From assembly GCA_017534945.1 (NCBI GenBank), contig JAFXVB010000020.1:1-33617 (forward strand): a DNA stretch of 33,617 nucleotides, in the 5' to 3' direction. The notes beneath the pieces were generated by a model. The model had not been told where the DNA came from. It made no database searches and saw only the letters and a program-made list of their open reading frames with translations. Of this stretch, positions 18,639-32,425 are shown piece by piece. The translations under genes and the position numbers were made by a program. Every line of letters starts with the position of its first letter. Positions within the stretch are counted from its first letter, which is position 1. Origin of the DNA: Alphaproteobacteria bacterium. GTDB lineage: Bacteria; Pseudomonadota; Alphaproteobacteria; Rs-D84.

Positions 18639-19256
18639 ATGGTATATGGTTATATCAGGGTCAGTACAGACCACCAAGATTGCGAAAATCAAAAACTTGG
18701 AATAGAGGCAAAGGCAAAATCATTAAATATGCACATAGATCGGTATATCAAGGATTCGGGGATCTCAGGTACAATAGACCCTCGTAACAGGGCATTGGGG
18801 CCAATTCTTCGTAAATTAAAAACAGGTGATGTTTTGATTTGTTCTGAACTGTCCCGTCTTGGACGCAAGTTATTTATGATCATGCGAATATTGGAACACT
18901 GCATGAATGTGGGGGCAAAGGTTTATACCGTAAAGGACGGATATGAATTGGGTGATAATATACAATCAAAAGTAATGGCTTTCGCCTTTGGTTTATCAGC
19001 AGAAATTGAAAGAGATTTGATAAGTCAACGAACCAAGGAAGCGTTGGCTGTTCGTCGTGCAAATGGTAAGAAACTGGGACGACCGATTGGTTGTGGTAAT
19101 AAATCGCATAAACTGGATGGAAAAATGCCTATAATTAAACATATGCTTAATTGTGGAATATCAAAACGACAGATTGCTAAAAAGCTTGGAGTGAGTTCCC
19201 CAACACTTTATGAATACATCTGTAATAACAAGGAAATAACCTTGGTTGCTTGTTAA
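18639..19256 (+). CDS. Small serine recombinase (resolvase/invertase family)
   Basis: A 205-residue DNA recombinase likely to invert or resolve short DNA segments. The catalytic domain has YIRVSTDHQD with nucleophile Ser9 and Arg7. It also has the ELSRLGR motif (residues 70-76) whose arginines support catalysis, and a long E-helix with FGLSAEIERDLISQRTKEAL. After GKKLGRP comes a C-terminal helix-turn-helix (GISKRQIAKKLGVSSPTLYEYI). Length fits Hin/Gin/Mpi-type invertases (family knowledge). AAGGAG sits eight bases before the start. The gene follows the late terminator, and I could not find a matched pair of recombination sites in the window. Confidence 0.93.
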   Translation: MVYGYIRVSTDHQDCENQKLGIEAKAKSLNMHIDRYIKDSGISGTIDPRNRALGPILRKLKTGDVLICSELSRLGRKLFMIMRILEHCMNVGAKVYTVKDGYELGDNIQSKVMAFAFGLSAEIERDLISQRTKEALAVRRANGKKLGRPIGCGNKSHKLDGKMPIIKHMLNCGISKRQIAKKLGVSSPTLYEYICNNKEITLVAC

Positions 19257-19289: not shown

Positions 19290-19318
19290 TTGATAAATGG
19301 GAATAAATATATTAGCAT
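19290..19318 (+). promoter_or_regulatory. Candidate sigma70 promoter for the structured RNA and sugar operon
   Basis: TTGATA (19290-19295), a 17-base spacer, then TAGCAT (19313-19318). Transcription would begin near 19325, about 70 bases before the first strong hairpin, and read into the dead recombinase and sugar genes. The area is AT-rich, so chance matches are likely; spacing is the main support. Confidence 0.4.
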
Positions 19319-19394
19319 TACGACGTACAAAAATTATCAAAATTAAACCAACCTTTTTTCTTAACGGCTTTATATTTTGAGGTTTTTGAATTCT

Positions 19395-19530
19395 GTGCTG
19401 TCAAGGAACAAAGAGGTTGTAGAGTTTCTAAGTCCTATCACCAAATTTCTTGGCAGCATCAAACTTGGGAGGAGTGGTGCAACGGTAACGCCACCAGGAT
19501 TACGGTTTTCGTGATTGTTTGAGCTCCTCC
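19395..19530 (+). ncRNA. Structured RNA element (long hairpin plus three-way junction), family unknown
   Basis: The 307-base gap 19257-19563 has no convincing gene but folds strongly. Stem A: 14 continuous pairs between 19395-19408 and 19446-19459, with a small inner hairpin TAGA-GTT-TCTA (19420-19430). Then a three-way junction: closing stem B of 7 Watson-Crick pairs GGAGGAG (19468-19474) / CTCCTCC (19524-19530); arm C TGGTG / CACCA (19475-19479 / 19492-19496) with a nested CG-GTAA-CG; arm D ATTACG / CGTGAT (19499-19504 / 19510-19515). All non-Watson-Crick pairs (three in stem A, one in arm D) are G-T when read on the plus strand, that is G-U in RNA, which points to a plus-strand transcript. 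It may be a free RNA or the leader of the gene at 19564. I recognise no known family. Confidence 0.6.
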
Positions 19531-19563
19531 ACTTGAACAAAAGCCTAATGGCAAAGGAATTAT

Positions 19564-20136
19564 ATGGTATATGGAATGATTCTTCTTGAACACATAAAAT
19601 GGAAACCAACGGAACAACGTGTTGGAATACAAGCCTTTGCTAGAAAAAACGGATTAAAAATTGATCAGTTCCTTTCGTATTTCCCAAATCCTAATATTTT
19701 GAATATAAAATCAGGGGATACAGTCGTCTTTTATGATTGGAGTTGTATCTGCAATTCACGAAAATATTTGAATGTTTTTCTAGGACATCTTATCAATAAA
19801 CATGTATGCATTTATTCCGTCCAAAGCAAATATAACATTGATGAAAATACAAATTTTGACCAGTTAGTCAATGCATTTAATTTCTTTGAAGATATTCGTT
19901 TTCGTTTCCTATCAAATCAAAATACCAAAGTGGTTCAAAGTCGTATAGCTCAAGGACAACCCGCTGGCCGTCACAAAGGTAGTAAAAACAAGACACATGT
20001 TTGGGATGAGCATGAAGCCGAAATTCTTTTGATGCACGCAGATGGATTTAGCATGTATGCGATAGCCAAGAAAATGAACATAAATGCACCTGCGGTACGA
20101 CGCTGTTTGATTGCTAATAACATAAAGGATATATAA
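19564..20136 (+). CDS. Catalytically dead serine recombinase paralogue
   Basis: A 190-residue protein matching the recombinase at 18639 along its whole length. Both start MVYG; then GIQAFARKNGLKIDQFL parallels GIEAKAKSLNMHIDRYI, and SGDTVVF parallels TGDVLIC. RIAQGQPAGRHKGSKNKTH parallels RRANGKKLGRPIGCGNKSH, and the C-terminal helix-turn-helix (GFSMYAIAKKMNINAPAVRRCL) is kept. The active site is gone: Arg7 and Ser9 are Leu7 and Glu9, and ELSRLGR has become DWSCICN. The frame is intact, so it is probably a functional DNA-binding protein or regulator, not decay. AAAGGA lies six bases before the start. Its stop overlaps the first glycosyltransferase (TAATG). Confidence 0.82.
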   Translation: MVYGMILLEHIKWKPTEQRVGIQAFARKNGLKIDQFLSYFPNPNILNIKSGDTVVFYDWSCICNSRKYLNVFLGHLINKHVCIYSVQSKYNIDENTNFDQLVNAFNFFEDIRFRFLSNQNTKVVQSRIAQGQPAGRHKGSKNKTHVWDEHEAEILLMHADGFSMYAIAKKMNINAPAVRRCLIANNIKDI

Positions 20137-20999
20137 TGGTAAAGACCCCTCCAAAAGTCTCTATTTTAACACCAATTTATAATACAAATCCACAATACCT
20201 AAAAGAGTGTATGGAATCTATATTAAATCAAACATTTACAGACTTTGAGTTTCTTATTTTGAACGATAGTCCAGACAATAAAGAAATTGAAAAAATTGTT
20301 AAAGAATATGCGCGAAAAGATAATCGTGTTAAGTATTACAAGAATGAAAAGAATATGGGTATATCTCCGTCTCGTAACAAATTGCTAGATTTAGCTCAAG
20401 GAGAATATATAGCAATCTTTGACCATGATGATATATCTCTCCCAACACGACTTGAAAAAGAAGTTGTTTATTTGGATGCAAATCCAGAAATTGGTGTAGT
20501 TAGTGCCTTTATGCAATATTTTCAATGCAAAGATGAAGGATTTGTCAGAACCTGTCCGGAATACGACCATGAGATTAAATGTTCTTTTACGGATAATTGC
20601 TATTTTCCCCATACTGTTTCAATGATACGAAAGTCAGTTTTGGATGAAAATAACATAAGATATGAACAATATTTCAGTCCATGTGAAGATTACCAGTTGT
20701 GGAATCGTTTGATGGATAAAACGTTTTTTTACTGTATACAAGAAGTATTAGTAAAATACCGCGCTTTTGATGGAAATACAACTCATGCGCAAAAGGACCG
20801 TATGGACATAAACCATAATGCCATTAGTTTAGATATCCAGAATAGGTACCCAGCATATCATGAATACTGGTTAAGAAACAGTGGCAGATCTGGGACAAGG
20901 TTTAGGCTTAGACTAGGTTTTATTCCTTTATTAAAGGTGAAGAATAACAAAGTTTACCTGTTTGAATTCATTCCGGTATTTAAGGTTAAATGGAGATAA
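20136..20999 (+). CDS. Glycosyltransferase family 2 (GT-A fold)
   Basis: A 287-residue cytoplasmic or membrane-associated sugar transferase. The GT2 N-terminus is VSILTPIYNTNPQYLKECMESILNQT, followed by EFLILNDSPDN, NMGISPSRNKLLDLAQGEYIAIFDHDD (the last residues are the DxD-type metal site) and a C-terminal acceptor region. The end FIPVFKVKWR resembles membrane-associated tails in LPS transferases. It is coupled to the dead recombinase gene by a one-base overlap. Sugar and acceptor cannot be told from sequence. Confidence 0.93.
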   Translation: MVKTPPKVSILTPIYNTNPQYLKECMESILNQTFTDFEFLILNDSPDNKEIEKIVKEYARKDNRVKYYKNEKNMGISPSRNKLLDLAQGEYIAIFDHDDISLPTRLEKEVVYLDANPEIGVVSAFMQYFQCKDEGFVRTCPEYDHEIKCSFTDNCYFPHTVSMIRKSVLDENNIRYEQYFSPCEDYQLWNRLMDKTFFYCIQEVLVKYRAFDGNTTHAQKDRMDINHNAISLDIQNRYPAYHEYWLRNSGRSGTRFRLRLGFIPLLKVKNNKVYLFEFIPVFKVKWR

Positions 21000-21002
21000 T
21001 AT

Positions 21003-22418
21003 ATGTCACAAATCAGCATTATTATTCCTGTATATAACGATGAAAAATACATCACTGAAACACTGGACAGTGTTATTGGACAAACATTTTCTGACTGGCA
21101 AGCCATTTGTATAAATGATGGCAGTACGGATAATTCATTAAAAATATTAAAACAATATGCAAAACGCGATAAACGCATACAAATAATAGACCAGAAAAAC
21201 GCCGGTGTCATTGTTGCACGCACGAATGGAATAAATAAGGCAAAATCTCCGTACATTTTCATGTTAGACGGGGATGACAAAATTGCGCCAACTACACTGG
21301 AAAAAATGTATCAAGCAATCACACACAGTCGTGGCGATATTATAACGTGTCGCGTGATGCAATTTGGTGAAGAAAATGGTGAAATGTTACTTCCTGCACC
21401 GAATAAATTAAATATGTCTAAAACGAATTGCTTGGTTAACGCGGCGTTGATGAGGAAGTCTGATTTTATTGCATGCGGTGGCTTCGATGAGCGTTTTTCT
21501 GCTATGATCGAAGATTATGATCTGTGGCTAAATTTGATATATAATTTCAATAAAAAAATCTACAGAATTCCAGAGATACTATTTTTCTATCGTATTAAAC
21601 CAAAAAATCTGTCACGAAATCAGCAAAAACGAAAAACGCATTATGATCTTTTAATGAATATACTATATCAAAAATACCCAATGCGTAAATGGCGCAGAAT
21701 TAAGAATGTTTTGCTGTATCCACAACGGATATTAAGGTTCTTTTTCAGAATACAAAATTATAAAGTTAAAATTCTTAAAATACCTGTTTATACAATCCGT
21801 AAATACGATACAGTTATATCTGTTGGTGCGGCGTGTTTTGTTCCAGATGTGTTAAAAGAATTGAAGTTACGCGATTTTTCGGGACCATTTGATTGGATGT
21901 ATGGGTCTAATGTTGTAATGCGGTTAAGTTTTATTAGAAACAGATTCAAGAATTACTTTGATTTTAATGATTTTGAATATGTTGGACCAAATCCAGATAA
22001 TGGGAAATCCGTGTATAAAAATAATCGTTCTGGTATTGTTTATAATCATGATTTTCCAACAGGAAATTTCAAGGATGTGTTCCCAGATGTAAAAGAAAAG
22101 TATAACCGCCGGATAAGACGCGTATTAAAGCATTTGAATTCCGATGAAAAGATTTTACTGGTGTATTCTGAATTAGGAAAAACTGGTGATAAAGATAAGC
22201 TTATACAGGTGATTAACGAAATAAATTCATCGTATAAGGCAAAGATAGATTTGCTTTATATAAACCATAACAAGTCTATTGAATTAAAGAAATATATCAA
22301 ACCAAAACGAATCTCAGAACATTTGATTTATGCAGAATATCACTATTCAAAATACCCCGATGAACTAGGTCAAGCAAGACGTATATGCAAGAAAATAGTA
22401 AAAAGGGTCGCCAAATGA
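21003..22418 (+). CDS. Glycosyltransferase family 2 fused to a DUF1796 domain
   Basis: A 471-residue two-domain protein. Residues 1 to about 210 are GT2: ISIIIPVYNDEKYITETLDSVIGQT, ICINDGSTDNS, and a FMLDGDDK metal site. A linker (about 215-265) leads to a second domain from about residue 270. That domain has DTVISVGAACFVPDVLKELKLRDFSGPFDWMYGS, IVYNHDFPTG, and EKILLVYSELGKTGDKDKL, the pattern of DUF1796, annotated in databases as papain-like cysteine peptidase-like. A Cys (ACF) and His (NHD) are kept in plausible catalytic places. The second domain may transfer or remove a group on the glycan rather than cut protein (inference). Confidence 0.85.
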   Translation: MSQISIIIPVYNDEKYITETLDSVIGQTFSDWQAICINDGSTDNSLKILKQYAKRDKRIQIIDQKNAGVIVARTNGINKAKSPYIFMLDGDDKIAPTTLEKMYQAITHSRGDIITCRVMQFGEENGEMLLPAPNKLNMSKTNCLVNAALMRKSDFIACGGFDERFSAMIEDYDLWLNLIYNFNKKIYRIPEILFFYRIKPKNLSRNQQKRKTHYDLLMNILYQKYPMRKWRRIKNVLLYPQRILRFFFRIQNYKVKILKIPVYTIRKYDTVISVGAACFVPDVLKELKLRDFSGPFDWMYGSNVVMRLSFIRNRFKNYFDFNDFEYVGPNPDNGKSVYKNNRSGIVYNHDFPTGNFKDVFPDVKEKYNRRIRRVLKHLNSDEKILLVYSELGKTGDKDKLIQVINEINSSYKAKIDLLYINHNKSIELKKYIKPKRISEHLIYAEYHYSKYPDELGQARRICKKIVKRVAK

Positions 22419-23491
22419 AAATATTATTTTTAATGAACCACATTATTATGGGCGGCTTGGAAAAGGTTTTGTTGCAATATTTGGACTCTATGCAAAAAGC
22501 CGGTGTAAATGTTACAGTTTTATCTTGTGAAAAAGTGACAGATCAATATTTTATTGATTTTTTCAGAACGCGAAAAATTGATTTAGAAATTCTTAATAAG
22601 CATAACGCGCATTTTTTCTTAAATAAAATAGTTTCTAAATATATGCGTAAAAGAAAATTGCGTCATATTATAGGGATGCATGACATAGTTATTGATTTTG
22701 CGAATTTTACGTTTTTTGAAGAATTAAAAAATATAAACAAGAAAAAAATCGGTTTTTGTCACGGCAGTATTTTATTCTTTAATTCACGTATTGATAAACG
22801 CGTGTTGGATATATATGACGATATTGTATGTTTATCCGATAATTTTACAACAGAATTTGTAAAATTATATCCTGGCTATAGAAATAAAATTCATCGTATT
22901 TACAATCCAATAAATGTCGATGAAGTTCGTAAATTGTCTAATGTTAAGGTATCTGTGAAAAAACCGTATTTTGTCGCGGTTCAACGTCTGGATTCTGTTG
23001 ATAAAGATGTGGCAACAATTATAAATGCCTTTAATATATTCTCAAAAAAACATCCAAAATATAATTTATACATAATTGGTGATGGACCTCAAATAGCGGA
23101 ATTGCGCCAAATGACGACGGGCAACAAACATGTTATTTTTACCGGCAAAATTGATAACCCATACCCGTTTATAAAAAATGCTGCGGCACTGATATTATCA
23201 TCAACATCAACCATCGGCGAAGGTCTACCAAACACATTGCTGGAAGCGCACGCACTTGGGACACTTGCGATATCCAGTGATGCGCCGTCTGGTCCACGTG
23301 AGATATTACTAAATGGTCGCGCAGGAATATTATTCGAACCAGGAAATGCACAAGATTTGGCGGTTAAGTTGGGCAAAATCGCAAACAAACAATATGCCAC
23401 GCATAAGATGATTGAATGTGCAGACAAAAATATAAATCGATTTGATGCAGATAAAAACCTGCATCAATTATTAAGTCTTATCAAAAAGTGA
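22415..23491 (+). CDS. Glycosyltransferase family 4 (GT-B fold)
   Basis: A 358-residue retaining transferase. ATG 22415 overlaps the previous stop (ATGA) and starts the typical MKILFLMNHIIMGGLEKVLLQYL; the ten residues open upstream do not fit the family. The C-terminal Rossmann domain has FVAVQRLDSVDKDVATIINAF, YNLYIIGDGPQIAEL and EGLPNTLLEAHALGTLAISSDAPSGPREIL, the usual nucleotide-sugar binding motifs with the Glu-x7-Glu pattern. Probably builds the same glycan as its neighbours. Confidence 0.93.
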   Translation: MKILFLMNHIIMGGLEKVLLQYLDSMQKAGVNVTVLSCEKVTDQYFIDFFRTRKIDLEILNKHNAHFFLNKIVSKYMRKRKLRHIIGMHDIVIDFANFTFFEELKNINKKKIGFCHGSILFFNSRIDKRVLDIYDDIVCLSDNFTTEFVKLYPGYRNKIHRIYNPINVDEVRKLSNVKVSVKKPYFVAVQRLDSVDKDVATIINAFNIFSKKHPKYNLYIIGDGPQIAELRQMTTGNKHVIFTGKIDNPYPFIKNAAALILSSTSTIGEGLPNTLLEAHALGTLAISSDAPSGPREILLNGRAGILFEPGNAQDLAVKLGKIANKQYATHKMIECADKNINRFDADKNLHQLLSLIKK

Positions 23492-23502
23492 GGGTAACGA
23501 TT

Positions 23503-23904
23503 ATGGTAAAGTATGATTTGCTGAATTTTCCTGTTCACGGCGACCATACCGGTTCGTTAGTTGCGCTTGAAAAGGGGGCGGATTTTCCCTTTGATATTAA
23601 AAGAGTCTACTATATATGGGGTACGGACAAAAATGCAGTTCGTGGTAAACATGCACATCGAAAATTAGAACAGGTTATTGTTTGTACATCTGGCTCATGC
23701 GATTTTATATTGGATGACGGTCAAGAACGTGTAGTTGTGCATTTGGATAATCCGACTGTAGGATTACATATCAAATCAAATATATGGCGTGAATTTACAA
23801 ATTTTTCGCATGATTGTGTTGTAATGGTTTTGGCATCTGAACATTATGATGAAGCTGATTACATTCGCGATTATCAAACATTTTTACAAGAGATTGCAAA
23901 ATGA
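23503..23904 (+). CDS. fdtA: FdtA/WxcM-like dTDP-4-keto-6-deoxyhexose 3,4-ketoisomerase
   Basis: A 133-residue cupin. ATG 23503 is preferred over a GTG fifteen bases earlier because GAGGG lies upstream at a normal distance. The double-stranded beta helix is clear: DFPFDIKRVYYIWGTD, RGKHAHRKLEQVIVCTSGSCDFILDDG with paired His50 and His52, and NPTVGLHIKSNIWREFTNFS. In known pathways FdtA or QdtA isomerises dTDP-4-keto-6-deoxyglucose to the 3-keto sugar (family knowledge). The aminotransferase at 28328 would use that product. Fuc3N versus Qui3N stereochemistry cannot be settled by eye. Confidence 0.85.
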   Translation: MVKYDLLNFPVHGDHTGSLVALEKGADFPFDIKRVYYIWGTDKNAVRGKHAHRKLEQVIVCTSGSCDFILDDGQERVVVHLDNPTVGLHIKSNIWREFTNFSHDCVVMVLASEHYDEADYIRDYQTFLQEIAK

Positions 23905-24851
23905 TAAAGATTGAAAAATACTCAAAAGATAAAAAGGCACAATGGGATAATTTTGTGAATACTTCTAAAACCCCGATGTTTATGTTTAATCGTGGTTTTA
24001 TGGAATATCATTCGGACAGGTTTATCGATAATTCACTATTGTTTTATAATGAAAAAAATGAATTGTTGGCCGTCTTGCCGGCGTCAATTCATGGGCAACA
24101 AATACGTTCACATGGTGGATTGACATATGGTGGATTTTTTGTAAATGATACGATGAAGCAGCACACAATGAACGATTGTGTTTCTGCATTGATTGAATAT
24201 TTGGATGCTAATAAAATAAATCACTTTATTTATAAATCTGTACCTAATATTTATAATATTTTACCGTCTGAAGAATACATGTGGCCATTGTGGCAGGCTG
24301 GATTCAGATTGGAACGCACAGATGTTTCATCAGTTATAGATTTACAAAACCAATTAAAAATGCCAAAGGGGCGCAAAGCGCAAATATCACGGGCCAAACG
24401 CGAAGATGTCGAAATTATTGAATCCGATGATTTTAATACATTTATTGATTTGGAAGATTCTGTTTTGTCCTTGCGGCATGGAGTTCGGGCGGTACATACT
24501 GGTGCGGAATTAAAGTTATTAAAATCAAGATTCCCTGAAAATATCAAATTGTTTATTGCAAAATATAAAGAACAAATGATAGCCGGAACTTTGTTGTTTA
24601 TTTATCCAAATGTTGTTCATACACAATATATGGCTGCAAATGAAATTGCACGCGAAATCGGTGGCCTTGATTTGTTAATCAAAACATTGATAGATAAATA
24701 TGCCGAATCAAAGAAATGGTTTGATTTTGGGATATCAACTGAACAAGGCGGTGAAGTATTTAATCCGGGGCTTTGTGCGCAAAAAGAAGGCTTTGGTGCA
24801 CGCACAATCGCATATAATTTCTATGAATGGAAACAAGGCAAAGGGAGATAA
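23901..24851 (+). CDS. FemAB/GNAT-type acyltransferase
   Basis: A 316-residue protein with two GNAT-like halves as in the FemAB and related families. There is an N-terminal FNRGFMEYHSDRF and LLAVLPASIHGQQIRSHGGLTYGGF, then GRKAQISRAKREDVEIIES. The C-terminal half has LFIAKYKEQMIAGTLLFIYPNVVHTQYMAAN and WFDFGISTEQGG. It sits next to the FdtA-like gene where many clusters carry a sugar N-acyltransferase, so N-acylation of the 3-amino sugar is a reasonable inference; transfer of an amino acid to the sugar is an alternative. It overlaps its left neighbour by four bases. Confidence 0.78.
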   Translation: MIKIEKYSKDKKAQWDNFVNTSKTPMFMFNRGFMEYHSDRFIDNSLLFYNEKNELLAVLPASIHGQQIRSHGGLTYGGFFVNDTMKQHTMNDCVSALIEYLDANKINHFIYKSVPNIYNILPSEEYMWPLWQAGFRLERTDVSSVIDLQNQLKMPKGRKAQISRAKREDVEIIESDDFNTFIDLEDSVLSLRHGVRAVHTGAELKLLKSRFPENIKLFIAKYKEQMIAGTLLFIYPNVVHTQYMAANEIAREIGGLDLLIKTLIDKYAESKKWFDFGISTEQGGEVFNPGLCAQKEGFGARTIAYNFYEWKQGKGR

Positions 24852-24854
24852 GGT

Positions 24855-26249
24855 ATGAAAGTAAATGCTTTCGATTTATTCCTTAGACAGAAAAGGTTTG
24901 ATTTAATCTTTAAGTATATTTATTTGAAAAACAAAGATAAAAACACACAGTTCTTTGAAAATTTATATGCGGAACATATTCGCGCATTTAACGGTTTTTA
25001 CGAAATCAACCCAAGTGATGGTATTCCAAAAAACACATGTGAAGATTTCATAAAATCTTTTGATGAATTATATGACAATATGTCAAAAAGAGGCTTTGAT
25101 AAAAAACATGGAATAATTCCAATTGGTGATAATGGTGAAATAAGCGATGGTGCACACCGTTTAACCTGTGCAGCTGTTTTGGGTTTAGATGTTGAATTGG
25201 AAGAAGACCACAGAAATGATTTATATGATTATAAATTCTTTCAAAATCAGGGTATAGACCCAGATATGGCAGATTATGCCGCATTAGAATATGTAAAATT
25301 AAACCCAAATGCATACATTGTAAATCTGCAAAGTATTATTGACACAAAATTTGATTCACAGGTAGAACAGATACTGGAAAAATATGGTTTTATATATTAC
25401 AAGAAAAATGTCAATATTACGTTTAATGGATTGGTAAATCTTAAAAAGTTATCTTATGGTTCGTTTTGGGATCGCGAATCATGGATAGGAACCGCAGAAA
25501 ATAGCTTTGCTGGTGCTGTATATCATGCAAATAATTCTTTTGGCAAAAACCCGATGCGAATATATGTTTTTGTTTGTGATAAATTGGCGGATGTTTTGGC
25601 GGCAAAATCTGAAATACGTGCTTTGTTTAATATTGGTAATTTTTGTGTGCATATAAATGATACTCGTGAAGAAGCAATTGCGTTGGCACAAACATATTTT
25701 AATAAAAATTCGTTGTATATGATAAATAAACGTCCATACCAATACGAAGACAATCATTTTGATAATATGGTTACGGAATTAAGGGATGCTACACATAATT
25801 ACGGCATTGATTTAAATGATGTTTGTGGTGGAGGAAGTACACCACTTGATGTTTTCGGTTTGCGGAAAAGTGATGACTTAGATTTCTTATATTGTGGAAA
25901 CAAAGACTTTAATATTCAAACTGAAACCTTGTCTAACCATGATACGGAATTGGTGTACTACCCGTATTCTAAACAAGAAATTATATTTAATCCAATGAAT
26001 CACTTATATTATCAAGGTGTTAAAATCATAACACTTGATATTTTGTTTGCCATGAAACAAAAACGTCACGAAATCCCGAAAGATGTTAATGATTGTAAAA
26101 TGATAAAGGCGTTTAAACGTGGTAAAAAATACCGTAAATCAAACTTCAAAATATTCCGTAAAATTCGGGACGGGCAAAAACGCACATTGGTATTCTTTAA
26201 TATTATCAAGATTCACTATACAAAAAGGGGGTGCAGGCATGGATTATAA
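24855..26249 (+). CDS. Polysaccharide-cluster protein with ParB-like and nucleotidyltransferase-like motifs
   Basis: A 464-residue protein without a clear family name. Near residues 88-110, IPIGDNGEISDGAHRLTCAAVLG resembles the DGxHRLxA motif of ParB/Srx-fold proteins that bind nucleotide. Near residues 322-345, CGGGSTPLDVFGLRKSDDLDFLYCG looks like the GS...D.D core of a nucleotidyltransferase-fold protein. The last 60 residues are very basic (KRGKKYRKSNFK). No signal peptide or membrane helix. Being inside an envelope-sugar operon suggests transfer of a phospho or nucleotidyl group to the glycan, but that is inference. It overlaps the next gene by eleven bases. Confidence 0.65.
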   Translation: MKVNAFDLFLRQKRFDLIFKYIYLKNKDKNTQFFENLYAEHIRAFNGFYEINPSDGIPKNTCEDFIKSFDELYDNMSKRGFDKKHGIIPIGDNGEISDGAHRLTCAAVLGLDVELEEDHRNDLYDYKFFQNQGIDPDMADYAALEYVKLNPNAYIVNLQSIIDTKFDSQVEQILEKYGFIYYKKNVNITFNGLVNLKKLSYGSFWDRESWIGTAENSFAGAVYHANNSFGKNPMRIYVFVCDKLADVLAAKSEIRALFNIGNFCVHINDTREEAIALAQTYFNKNSLYMINKRPYQYEDNHFDNMVTELRDATHNYGIDLNDVCGGGSTPLDVFGLRKSDDLDFLYCGNKDFNIQTETLSNHDTELVYYPYSKQEIIFNPMNHLYYQGVKIITLDILFAMKQKRHEIPKDVNDCKMIKAFKRGKKYRKSNFKIFRKIRDGQKRTLVFFNIIKIHYTKRGCRHGL

Positions 26250-27261
26250 ATTAACAATTATTATGTCTAATTATAACCAAGAGCAGTATATTGAAAAAGC
26301 AATAGAATCGGTCTTGGCACAAAAGACAAATTTTTATTGGCAACTGATAATCACTGATGATAATTCGGTCAAAGATAACAGTGTAGAAATAATAAAAAAA
26401 TATGCAGAAAAATATCCTGAAAAAATAGTCGCTCTTTTGAATAAAGAAAATGGGCGGTATTTGAAAAATGTACTTCGCGCCAAGGCGATAACCAAAACGC
26501 CTTATTTTACTTTGTTAGATGCTGATGATTATTGGACCGATGAAAACTATTTACAAAATGCGGTTGATTATTTGGATGCAAATCCAGATAAAGTAATTTA
26601 TGCACGTAATGTAGAATGTTTGGACGAATCTGGAAAAAAATGGTTGTTTATTCCCGAAAATACACCTGATGGTGATTTTACAATGGAAGATTATTTAAAT
26701 AACCGCATTGTTATTCCGCAAACTACGGGTGGGGTGTTTAGAAATGTTATTTTTGCACATGGTATTCCAAAAATTATGAGTGATGCAATTGGAACTGTTC
26801 ATGAACGTTCGTTTGAAGGTGATTTCGACAGATTTATTATGCATCTTAAATACGGTGGCGCACATTTTGAGAACAAGGCATCTGGGGTTTATCGTGTATT
26901 ATCTGCGGGAATTTGGTCCCGTATGAATACGTTTGAAAGACACGCTATTCAGGCACAAACATTGGTTGATTATGATGAATATTTTGAACATAAATATGCG
27001 AGATTCTTTATAAAATCTGCATGGAATGCACTGAATACCGCGATTGATTTTATTAAAGAAAAACATGAAAACATAACATTTTCCGTAGAATCACAAAATG
27101 CATTTTTTAATGCATTGACGGTATGTATGAAACATACAGATTTATTGCAGATGCCTGTGCAAGCGGAAAATGGACCAAAAAAACTTAAATATCGTGTTAT
27201 GCTGTGCATCCTTAGATATTGTCAAAAAAAATTGAAAAAGTATGGGGTAATTGAAAAATGA
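26239..27261 (+). CDS. Glycosyltransferase family 2
   Basis: A 340-residue GT-A transferase. ATG 26239 is used because LTIIMSNYNQEQYIEKAIESVLAQ begins right there after a G-rich ribosome site; a longer frame upstream lies inside the preceding gene. Motifs: LIITDDNSVKDNSVEII, AKAITKTPYFTLLDADDYW with a D-A-D-D metal site, and a family-like AGIWSRMN segment later. C-terminal region is helical and basic. Substrate unknown. Confidence 0.92.
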   Translation: MDYKLTIIMSNYNQEQYIEKAIESVLAQKTNFYWQLIITDDNSVKDNSVEIIKKYAEKYPEKIVALLNKENGRYLKNVLRAKAITKTPYFTLLDADDYWTDENYLQNAVDYLDANPDKVIYARNVECLDESGKKWLFIPENTPDGDFTMEDYLNNRIVIPQTTGGVFRNVIFAHGIPKIMSDAIGTVHERSFEGDFDRFIMHLKYGGAHFENKASGVYRVLSAGIWSRMNTFERHAIQAQTLVDYDEYFEHKYARFFIKSAWNALNTAIDFIKEKHENITFSVESQNAFFNALTVCMKHTDLLQMPVQAENGPKKLKYRVMLCILRYCQKKLKKYGVIEK

Positions 27262-28331
27262 AAAATCCAAGATTTTCGATAATTTGTCCGGCCTTTAATC
27301 ACGAACGCTATGTTGCATGGTTTATTGACAGTGTTTTGGCACAAACTGTTTCTGATTGGGAATTGGTCATTGTTGATGATTGCTCATCTGATAATACCGC
27401 GAAAATTATAAAATCTTATACCGATAAACGCATAAAGTTTATTCAACATAAAATAAATGGCGGGATAAATGCTGCGATAAATACTGGGGTTGAAAATTCA
27501 ACTGGCGAGATATGGATTATGGTTGCATCTGACGATGTTATGTGTTCGGATGCACTGGAAAAAATAGGGGCGGCATTTGATAAGAACCCAAACGCAGTTG
27601 CAGTGTATTGTAATCTGGATGTAATTGACGAGAATAATGAAGCGCGCACAGACATTGTCATGCCAGAATTAAAAAATCGTTCGCGCGCTTCATTTTTGCA
27701 CGATGCGTTTATGCACAATAACGTTCTTTATGGGCCAGGTATGTCAATGCGGGCAAAATATGCAAAGAAAATGTTTCCTGCAACACCAGCAAATTGCATA
27801 TTCCAAGATTATATTCAAAATGTTCAATTGTTGATAATGGGGGATGTTTTTGTTTTACCGGAAAAGGTTATAAAATATCGTATAACACATGACCAAAAAA
27901 ATATAAGTGCGGCGGGATTTTCTACAGAAATGCGCTGTAAATTAGAAACAGACAGTTTAATGGATGTTTTTCTTTCAATCGAAGATATAAATTTATTACA
28001 TGAAATATTCAGTGATGAAATTAAAAAAACAGGTATAAACATTAAAAATATACGTGATTTAAAATATTTTCTGGGGCGTATGGCATTGTTATCGTATGAT
28101 GATTCGCGAAAAATTTGGGGATTCCACCAGATAATGAATTGCTATAATACAGACAGGGCAAGATTATATAAAGAATATGGTTTTCAATTTCGTGATTTGG
28201 TTAAGTTGGTAAATTCCTTCCAGCCGTCTGAATATTCAAAAAAGTACAGAAAATATAAACGGCTTTTCAATTTAATGCTGATCTTATCTGCGCTGTTGTT
28301 GTTAACCAGTATAGTTGGGGTAATATTATGA
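27258..28331 (+). CDS. Glycosyltransferase family 2 with C-terminal membrane helix
   Basis: A 357-residue GT-A transferase: [42 protein letters not shown], and [11 protein letters not shown] with an acidic metal site. The last 22 residues form one hydrophobic helix ([19 protein letters not shown]) that would anchor it to the inner membrane where lipid-linked glycans are built. Overlaps both neighbours by four bases. Confidence 0.92.
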
Positions 28332-29413
28332 TTAAGTTTTTAGATCTTGAAAAAATAAATAACCGCTTTCGTAGTGAATTTGATGCCAGAATCAAAGATG
28401 TTCTAGATTCCGGATGGTATTTGTCAGGTAAATGGAATGATGAATTTGCGGCACATTTTGCTGAATTTTGTGGAACCAAACATGCGATTGGGGTTGCGAA
28501 TGGTTTGGATGCGATAAACCTGATTATTCGTGGCTATGGTTTTGGTCCGGGGGACGAAATTATTGTCCCAGCAAATACATATATTGCAACTATATTGGCA
28601 ATTTCTGAAAATGGTTGCACACCAGTATTGGTTGAACCTGATATAAATACTTACAACATAGCCCCCGAAAAAATAGAAGAAAAAATTACTCCGAGAACCA
28701 AAGCAATAATCGTAGTTCATTTGTATGGTCAGGCCGTTCAAATGAAAAAAATTTGGGAATTGGCAAAGAAATATAACCTGAAAATTATCGAAGATGCCGC
28801 CCAGGCACACGGTGCAATTTATGACGGGAACCGCGTTGGGAACCTGGGTGATGCGGCGGCATTTTCGTTTTATCCTGGTAAAAATCTGGGGGCGTTGGGC
28901 GATGCCGGTGGCATAACAACAAATGATACGGAATTATTTGAACGGGTTAAAGCAATAGCAAATTATGGTTCTGATTATAAATATCATCATATCTACAAGG
29001 GTGTAAATTCGCGTATGGATGAAATTCAGGCCGCTCTATTGGATATAAAGTTGCCATATTTGGATGCTGATAACGCCCGTCGTCGTAAAATTGCAAAGTT
29101 TTATTGTGAAAATATTACAAACCAAAAAATTCTTTTGCCAAAGACATATGATGAAAATGCACATGTGTGGCATGTATTTGCTATCAGATGTGAAATTCGT
29201 GATGAATTATGTAAATATCTGAATGATAATGGTGTACAGACAAACATTCACTATCCAACCCCACCACACAAACAGGGTGCATACAAAGAATGGAATAACC
29301 AATCTTTTCCAATTACAGAAGAAATTCATCACACAATAATGTCTTTGCCAATGTCACCAGTGATGACAGATGATGAAGTAAAACAAATTGTTGATTTGGT
29401 AAATAAATTTTAA
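28328..29413 (+). CDS. fdtB: FdtB/QdtB-like dTDP-3-keto-6-deoxyhexose aminotransferase (DegT/DnrJ/EryC1)
   Basis: A 361-residue PLP enzyme of the sugar aminotransferase family. Key signs: [59 protein letters not shown], and [18 protein letters not shown] with the PLP-binding Lys185. [16 protein letters not shown] and [11 protein letters not shown] follow. Together with the FdtA-like enzyme 5 kb upstream in the same operon it would make a dTDP-3-amino-3,6-dideoxyhexose (pathway knowledge). No rmlA or rmlB gene is in the window, so the dTDP-4-keto-6-deoxyglucose precursor must come from the host. Confidence 0.9.
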
Positions 29414-30506: not shown

Positions 30507-31580
30507 CTAGCTCTTGTTCATAAATTCATGGATTGCTGGTGTTGTCCCACGAACTCCTATATTGTTCTGAATCCATGGTAATATAAAATTGGTAATTTCT
30601 GAATGTATGTCGTGTAGAATTCTATCAGAAAATACATATTCGTTACCATCAACAAGTTTAAATTCTTTGCTTCTAAGCAAATCTAAAATATCGTTTTTAG
30701 AGTGGTTATATTGTGTGCAAAATTCATCGATAGTACCAGAGTGAATTATTTTTAATCTATTTATCTTTTCTGCAATTTCGGACATATAATCATTCGGAAA
30801 AAGATCAAAACCTTTTTTGAAACTATTATATACACCTATAGCAAGGTCTTTATCTTTTGGTAATTCAATTGACCTGAATAGACTTTTTACATTGTTTTTT
30901 GCTGGTAGCTTTATTGCCATCGCACACTGAAATAAAGGTCTTGGTACGGCCTGGAAACCAACAATTATAGGTTCTGTCTCGTGTAGTAAAGTTTTATAAT
31001 CTGCAATGTATAACATTGGTTTGTATGCATCAAAATCAGTAATGGGTAAATATTGGCCAGAGTCATAATAGGTATATGCAAAAAACAATGCTACATTCAT
31101 ATTGGTAGTTGTATCTATATATTCAGTAGGAAAGCCGTAATGCTGAGTAACTGCCTCTAAATCAAAGTCAAAAGTATTACCCTTGATGCTGATGTTAGAA
31201 AGACGTTTGTAATAAGGTAATGCCATGAAATAGTTTTTAAACTCTTCTCTCTGCACCAGAGAAATTAAAAGTTTATTTTGGTCAGCAGGTCTATGTATGG
31301 TTGGAATGAATTTATAATCCTTGTTTTGACCACGATAAATATACGGTTCAAACTCTCCGCCTAACCAGATTCTGAATTTATTTTCCTCTGTTCTTAAAGC
31401 AACCCCAGATTTATCGTTGTTTACAACTACTCCTAAATCATGAATTGATATGGCATGGCTTACAGCACTTATTGGATGGTTTTTCATCATACTGGCAAAA
31501 AAATCTACAGACATCAAATTCTTGCCATCAGATTCAACAATAAGGTTTGCATTAAATATATCGTTTTTGTTAATAATCAT
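30507..31580 (-). CDS. FRG domain protein, candidate defence protein
   Basis: A 357-residue soluble protein. ATG at 31580 has GGAG seven bases upstream; the frame reaches a TTG five codons earlier. The FRG domain is seen as GEFEPYIYRGQNKDYKFIPTIHR (near residues 70-95) and LEAVTQHYGFPTEYIDTTTNMNVALFFAYTY (near 140-170). FRG proteins are found in phage-defence loci and their biochemistry is little known (family knowledge). The gene follows a DUF2971 gene with a 29-base gap on the same strand. Base composition is AT-rich compared with late genes. Confidence 0.85.
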   Translation of the reverse strand: MIINKNDIFNANLIVESDGKNLMSVDFFASMMKNHPISAVSHAISIHDLGVVVNNDKSGVALRTEENKFRIWLGGEFEPYIYRGQNKDYKFIPTIHRPADQNKLLISLVQREEFKNYFMALPYYKRLSNISIKGNTFDFDLEAVTQHYGFPTEYIDTTTNMNVALFFAYTYYDSGQYLPITDFDAYKPMLYIADYKTLLHETEPIIVGFQAVPRPLFQCAMAIKLPAKNNVKSLFRSIELPKDKDLAIGVYNSFKKGFDLFPNDYMSEIAEKINRLKIIHSGTIDEFCTQYNHSKNDILDLLRSKEFKLVDGNEYVFSDRILHDIHSEITNFILPWIQNNIGVRGTTPAIHEFMNKS

Positions 31581-31609
31581 AATGTCTCCAAGCAAGCTTT
31601 ACCTAAAAA

Positions 31610-32425
31610 TTATCGATATGGTGTTTCAGATCTTGTAATTTGTATGTTTTCCGTTGAAAAACCATTGCCCTGCAATAAGCTGACAATAGTTTCGTGTGGC
31701 ATTACATTTTTTGGTCCAAAAACAATCTTGGTTATAGGATATGGTTCTGGAAATGGCCACTTAAAGAATGGAATCTTATTTTTACCATTATCTCTGTGGC
31801 AGAGTTCTAAAGACAGATGGTCTAATGTGGCAGTAAAAAGCGGTGGAGTATAGATAATTCTACATTCTTGTTCATCCTTAAATCCAGGGTGTTTAAAAAT
31901 TGATGCAAGTCCAGATAAAACAGCACTTTCAATTGGGTCAGAGTTGTTTAATAAGAATTTTCTTATTTCCGCTTCCATTATATCAAATTGTTCGTTCCTA
32001 TCGTATATGACTTTATTCAATTTTATTGAGTATCGATCATTAGCATTTACTAAACACAAACCTGTATCAATTTGCATCTTTGATGTTTCAAATCCAATGG
32101 CAAATCCTGTGCCATCACCAGCGTATGCTCGCCACTGACTTAATGAGTCGCCATCTGCTGAAAAAGAAGATATAAATTTAGTTGCAAAATCTCCATTTAA
32201 GAATATGTTTTCACAGATTTTATTTAGTCTATTTTGATCTAGAGTATTATCCATGGATAGTTTTGTAACAACATTCATAACGATAAATTTATACCATTGA
32301 CATTCTGTTGAATCGTTCATGTGCCATGCAGGGTTTAACCACATACACTTTGAGTGAAGAATCTTTTCAAGTTTGTCTACAGTACAGTAGTGATAGATAA
32401 CATCTGGTATTTCAAAGGCTGACAT
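31610..32425 (-). CDS. DUF2971 domain protein, partner of the FRG gene
   Basis: A 271-residue soluble protein opening EIPDVIYHYCTVDKLEKILHSKCMWLNPAWHMNDSTE, the hallmark of DUF2971. ISSFSADGDSLSQWRAYAGDGTGFAIGF follows, then EQECRIIYTPP. AAGGA lies before ATG 32425. DUF2971 proteins occur in accessory and defence regions; function is unproven (family knowledge). It is the first gene of a short operon with the FRG gene, with its own promoter upstream. Confidence 0.85.
   Translation of the reverse strand: MSAFEIPDVIYHYCTVDKLEKILHSKCMWLNPAWHMNDSTECQWYKFIVMNVVTKLSMDNTLDQNRLNKICENIFLNGDFATKFISSFSADGDSLSQWRAYAGDGTGFAIGFETSKMQIDTGLCLVNANDRYSIKLNKVIYDRNEQFDIMEAEIRKFLLNNSDPIESAVLSGLASIFKHPGFKDEQECRIIYTPPLFTATLDHLSLELCHRDNGKNKIPFFKWPFPEPYPITKIVFGPKNVMPHETIVSLLQGNGFSTENIQITRSETPYR

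Follow-up and report, generated by a model that had tools for sequence, protein, structure and literature searches.

A structured RNA between two serine recombinase genes is probably the leader of a prophage-borne surface-glycan operon

A gap of 307 bases separates an active-type from a degenerate serine recombinase gene in the 33,617-nucleotide stretch of DNA analysed here in full (the window). An earlier note on this DNA had placed a structured RNA in the gap and raised the possibility that it serves recombination. The locus thus poses three questions: whether the RNA is real, which strand encodes it, and whether its partner is the recombinase or something else.

Genomic Setting

The window is contig C37 of genome G000 (0.91 Mb in 46 contigs, 89.6% complete), and the comparison set consisted of 183 related genomes of the same family. 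Genes for phage structural proteins, an endolysin and spanins are followed by the serine recombinase gene, the gap, the degenerate recombinase gene and a roughly 9-kb glycosyltransferase operon; the far end carries what we take, judging from its translation, to be the host metK gene. Because of the phage genes and this metK-like end, the window looks like a prophage. FRG-domain and DUF2971 genes (30507-32425, minus strand) lie beside a tail-fibre-like gene at the prophage end; both are found in candidate defence genes.

The upstream recombinase (18639-19256, plus strand) belongs to the DNA invertase family (PF00239, E 9e-32; phrog_125, E 3e-45) and retains the RVSTD serine and SRLGR motifs, while the downstream gene (19564-20136, plus strand), the first of the operon, encodes a serine-recombinase-like protein without the catalytic serine and the SRLGR arginines. 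The RNA indeed lies, as first described, between an active-type and a catalytically dead recombinase. The remainder of the operon, the proposed target of the RNA, comprises glycosyltransferase and sugar-modification genes (20136-29413, plus strand), assigned by PF00535 in its first gene and elsewhere from open reading frame translations and mutual similarity.

The dead recombinase represents a conserved family (window 19564-20136; L026-L034) that stands first in glycosyltransferase operons of several other genomes, where the leader RNA is mostly absent upstream, and is possibly a regulator binding inverted repeats. At two such loci (L087 of genome G140, and L023) the dead-recombinase gene is preceded by an RNA of another type, X, described below, in place of the three-way-junction leader. 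The genome of the window has a further dead-recombinase gene at a contig end (G000:C46, L090); it is partial, with 44% identity over residues 49-186, and the next gene encodes a glycosyltransferase 59% identical to the first glycosyltransferase of the window.

Structure of the RNA

Refolding recovered the elements read from the letters in the earlier note. The 14-pair hairpin (hairpin 1, 19395-19459, plus strand) has its 14 outer base pairs and a folding energy, taken alone, of -21.8 kcal/mol (z -3.98), equalled by none of 200 shuffles. The three-way junction (19467-19531, plus strand), delimited by folding and by a covariance model, reaches -24.9 kcal/mol (z -2.41), with 4 of 200 shuffles as good. 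It is closed by seven Watson-Crick pairs (P1, 19468-19474/19524-19530), and the suspected GUAA tetraloop (19485-19488) is present in P2 on a two-pair nested stem. P3 is formed by 19498-19504 and 19510-19516, and the junction strand GUUUGAG occupies 19517-19523. Folding energy by itself would be moderate evidence; the homologues decide.

Homologues, Covariation and Strand

The first homologue was found on IMG/VR contig L022, with the same gene order; its recombinase is 88% and its dead recombinase 43% identical to those of the window, and P1, P2, P3 and the hairpin stem all still pair through altered bases. A cis partner for the junction strand, noticed by eye (UCAAAC at 19459-19464 with GUUUGA), is not kept in this contig and was discarded. 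Related genomes yielded four further homologues, at recombinase loci. An alignment of six sequences, the window among them, was the seed of a covariance model of the junction (R1), and a search of the 183 family genomes with this model returned about 30 good matches; the window, itself a seed sequence, scored 67.9 bits (E 1e-17).

The covariation for which the earlier note had looked to homologues is extensive. Among the 22 junction pairs, 20 are altered on both sides in a 31-row alignment, and 96.6% of cells pair; the alignment was fitted to R1, which favours pairing, but every control with a slid register falls to 31-46%, a very large gap. Wobble cells on the junction pairs comprise 65 G-U against 2 A-C, so the argument for a plus-strand RNA, first made from the G-U pairs of the window, proved sound. 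Taken together, the sequence comparisons identify the junction as a genuine folded RNA of the plus strand. The closing stem and the three-way topology are kept in the homologues, and the P2 loop of relatives stays GNRA on altered pairs (CG/CG replaced by UC/GA, GC/GC or ACA/UGU). For hairpin 1 the comparison covers three sequences (window, IMG/VR contig and genome G114), where the stem pairs are altered yet still pair and the apex GUUUCUAAGU is invariant. The window thus shows the features of the R1 family, i.e., P1, P2 with a nested GNRA loop or an equivalent, P3, the UUUGA strand and covariation.

Weak R1 matches of about 19.5 bits, with a fixed length of 54 nt, recur across the genomes and were left out of the counts. 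No match was found in phage GenBank records, and scanning IMG/VR for the loop motif as a DNA pattern gave three chance matches inside protein-coding genes (L095-L097). In genome G022 (L034, upstream of position 1501) the structured RNA is absent, although promoter region and dead-recombinase gene start both correspond to those of the window. This speaks against a leader role: the RNA is dispensable at this locus, or the locus is decaying. The match to the dead-recombinase gene ends there after about 84 residues.

Genes Downstream of the RNA

The gene following the junction encodes a glycosyltransferase or another surface-glycan protein in essentially all strong R1 matches, and usually begins 19-32 nt away on the same strand; the matches come from many related alphaproteobacteria of the gut. 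Pfam analysis of ten first genes identified family-2 glycosyltransferases, Stealth proteins, UDP-galactopyranose mutase and capsule synthesis proteins; two of the ten had no match within their first 250 residues. Only two matched loci precede a dead recombinase. The window falls in with this pattern: the RNA directly precedes a surface-glycan operon, in which the dead recombinase comes first and is followed by glycosyltransferases. Upstream of the junction two arrangements predominate, with either a serine recombinase gene or an X RNA in front of it.

Because of its position, spacing and orientation before glycan operons, we consider it likely that the RNA acts in cis as the 5' leader of a surface-glycan operon, here prophage-borne, and would control its expression; of the roles considered, that of a cis-acting leader appears by far the likeliest.

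X RNAs and Loop Complementarity

In the X RNA, a three-way-junction core is preceded by a 5' hairpin whose loop varies and followed by an end resembling an intrinsic terminator; the RNA is found upstream of glycan genes and of genes for secreted-protein-like products (L160:1231-1484, L232-L235, L236-L295 and others). A model of its core (R2) matches 164 of the 183 family genomes, with copy numbers reaching at least 24 per genome; matches extend to a second family of the order. At many loci the leader junction directly follows the terminator-like end of an X RNA. The longest complement between the X junction strand and the 5' hairpin loop of the same RNA averages 6.9 bases, as against 5.25 (sd 0.13) for swapped partners, which demonstrates that X addresses engage in pairing in cis.

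R1 and R2 match the same places at eight loci, and R1 finds one X copy of G000 (E 2.7e-5); the X core therefore seems to have a reduced relative in the window junction. The window junction itself was not reported by R2, so common descent with X is something that we infer.

The leader and the X RNAs also meet in the loop of hairpin 1. Some X RNAs have an address, GGACUUAGAAACUC, to which the conserved apical sequence of the hairpin, GAGUUUCUAAGUCC (19422-19435, plus strand), is perfectly complementary, over 14 nt in the window and in L022. Pairing in trans is possible, and an X RNA of the GGGACUUAGAAACUC type may be the kissing partner of the leader loop. The UUUCUAAG loop of the leader could then kiss the CUUAGAAAC-type address loop of the attenuator-like X RNAs made elsewhere in the genome, whereby an active prophage or phase-variable locus would alter other surface loci or be regulated by them. 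Such cross-locus pairing is compatible with a leader role, and the pairing of X addresses in cis speaks for it, as do three genomes (G001, G124 and G107) that hold both the loop and an X RNA with at least 11 complementary bases. Against it, no matching address was found in the four X copies of G000 or in the X copies of G114 (both genomes about 89% complete); co-occurrence in three of five genomes, set against a background of about 35 in 183, is weak and suggestive only; and inheritance could account for the complementarity, should the loop derive from the 3' strand of X. We regard cross-locus pairing as a worthwhile hypothesis of rather low probability. More tentative still is the specific proposal that the prophage leader loop is the address complement of host X RNAs, and that prophage and host sugar loci switch each other by kissing, on top of promoter inversion.

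Proposed Mode of Action

As a cis-acting leader, the RNA would be transcribed from a putative promoter (TTGATA-17-TAGCAT, 19290-19318, plus strand), a consensus-scan match not above chance alone at a site conserved in L022 and G022, with transcription probably starting near 19325. The transcript would include hairpin 1 and then the three-way junction before reaching the dead-recombinase and glycosyltransferase genes, and the junction, just upstream of the ribosome-binding site, would gate the long operon after initiation. A post-initiation switch, on transcription or on translation, is favoured. The exposed elements, namely the UUUGA[A/G] strand and, at some loci, the UUUCUAAG loop, are likely contacts for a partner acting in trans, which could be an X-type RNA or a protein; UUUGA[A/G] is conserved while the helices vary freely, which suggests a fixed partner.

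On the side of transcription, the RNA could be a processive antitermination element comparable to EAR, put or ops/JUMPstart, which head long polysaccharide or phage operons. Long polysaccharide operons often require antitermination, and the RNA heads long glycan operons, at many loci right after the intrinsic-terminator-like end of X. On the other hand, the Rfam antitermination families gave no covariance-model match at gathering threshold in the window or related loci, and no sequence feature sets the RNA apart from other leader mechanisms; antitermination is, in our view, a conceivable function of low probability.

On the side of translation, the 3' strand of P1 could mask the Shine-Dalgarno sequence of the first gene, being pyrimidine-rich and near the start codon; when the 3' part is folded alone, this strand pairs with the Shine-Dalgarno region at several loci. 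Native pairs were compared with swapped ones over 22 items, the IMG/VR item being taken from a gapped alignment row, and were not significantly stronger (mean -5.07 vs -4.72 kcal/mol, p 0.18; p 0.29 with near-duplicates removed). The P1 strand was accordingly dropped as a candidate mask of the ribosome site, and a translational switch of this kind is unlikely.

Recombinases and Invertible Promoters

The first proposal, that the RNA is a cofactor or regulator of the neighbouring serine recombinase, drew on a vicinity that recurs: the RNA adjoins an active recombinase in L022 and at four other loci as well as in the window. Homologues beside recombinase genes were indeed found, in L022 and in related genomes; the expected association with recombinase pairs did not hold beyond them, as a recombinase lies within about 1.5 kb of the RNA at only 5 of the 30 matched loci, besides the IMG/VR contig, and the other 25 have none at that distance. 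Many homologous recombinase genes are, moreover, followed by inverted repeats without such an RNA, and the constant neighbour of the RNA is the glycan operon. A role in recombination proper is thus very improbable. A DNA element, such as a cruciform or recombination site, is less credible yet: the RNA is close to inverted repeats used in inversion at related loci, but these lie upstream of it and not inside, and a DNA structure would give no bias of 65 G-U to 2 A-C on the plus strand.

The leader RNA is tied to recombination indirectly, in that the promoters of some of the operons sit between inverted repeats. Three of the loci with a serine recombinase gene before the junction, in genomes G001, G114 and G107, have a segment of about 90-130 bp enclosed by perfect inverted repeats of 12-17 bp; comparable repeats lie downstream of the recombinase at other loci, where the RNA is lacking. 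The clearest case is a locus of G135 and G145, at which 19-bp repeats enclose a 69-base promoter segment, followed directly by the leader RNA and a glycosyltransferase gene (L149:1376-1482 and L150:1376-1482; G135:C3 near 33509, G145:C1 near 563215). The segment has opposite orientations in the two genomes, which represent two species, with 66 of 69 positions identical when it is inverted and 41 of 71 when it is compared directly, while the sequence through the RNA is 98% identical. Comparison of the two genomes shows that the promoter flips beside the leader RNA at this locus. Neither genome has a recombinase within the flanks examined, and a recombinase of the type found next to the RNA elsewhere presumably does the flipping.

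Pairs of inverted repeats AAACCAACG...CGTTGGTTT were also found just upstream of the dead recombinase in G066, G011 and G088. By sequence comparison, the window has a single AAACCAAC-type arm (19343-19366, plus strand), part of an inverted repeat at other dead-recombinase loci, and a search for a second arm within the window gave none; its own promoter may therefore be fixed.

Comparison with Known Systems

The initial impression that the RNA belongs to no known family was borne out by Rfam, which gave no match at gathering threshold in the window or related loci. No description of the leader was found in the literature searched, most subscription journals lying outside it. By model score and topology, the nearest curated families are sRNA-Xcc1, through X, and c4-2, in topology only. 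sRNA-Xcc1 (RF02221) is an integron- or plasmid-borne small RNA of Xanthomonas (PMC2996969, PMC12444791). It combines a three-way junction with a terminator and lies upstream of symE, whereas the leader has no terminator and heads a glycan operon; the consensus of its junction strand, uuUUugAgC, resembles UUUGAGC of the window. Membership was rejected: an X RNA scored 33.3 bits (E 3.5e-4) against the whole RF02221 model, where gathering lies at 53; at that threshold the X copies of G000 and others went unreported, and the window junction was not reported even at E 10.

The c4-2 and C4 antisense phage RNAs (RF02944, RF01695) have the topology of the window junction: a closing stem, next a P2 interrupted by a bulge of two bases and bearing a nested GNRA loop, and lastly P3. 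The c4-2 match spans the whole junction at 14.1 bits (E 2.3), well short of the gathering score of 41, and membership was likewise rejected. P1 of the window is shorter, no antirepressor gene is adjacent, and there is no C4-type target; the complementarity is instead to X addresses.

The EAR element of the epsC region, ops/JUMPstart and the phage put RNA are leader elements that start long polysaccharide or phage operons. They have a like place at the head of an operon, but no covariance-model match to the window RNA. By analogy, the RNA would work most like a leader of polysaccharide operons, though no known leader family matches it.

In Bacteroides, invertible capsule promoters occur together with UpxY/UpxZ (e.g., PMC7315117). 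The loci described here resemble them in the inverted-repeat switching of surface-polysaccharide promoters and in a regulator-like first gene, and differ in phylum, in having a dead recombinase or glycosyltransferase as the first gene, and in the structured leader RNA. If true, mutual switching by RNA kissing would be an RNA-based counterpart of the UpxY/UpxZ capsule hierarchy of Bacteroides.

The RNA is real, new as a family and ordinary in kind, most likely a leader RNA; its company is unusual, with promoters that invert, a glycan operon carried by a prophage and a class of addressed RNAs present in very many copies. An uncatalogued structured RNA would thereby join the control of surface polysaccharides, partly phase-variable, both in a gut lineage that is uncultured and in a prophage with its own sugar operon. 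The X RNAs, which carry individual pseudoknot addresses and reach at least 24 copies in some genomes of about 1 Mb, would be among the most multiplied regulatory RNAs for genomes of such size, and they make coordination of surface loci by RNA addresses directly testable.
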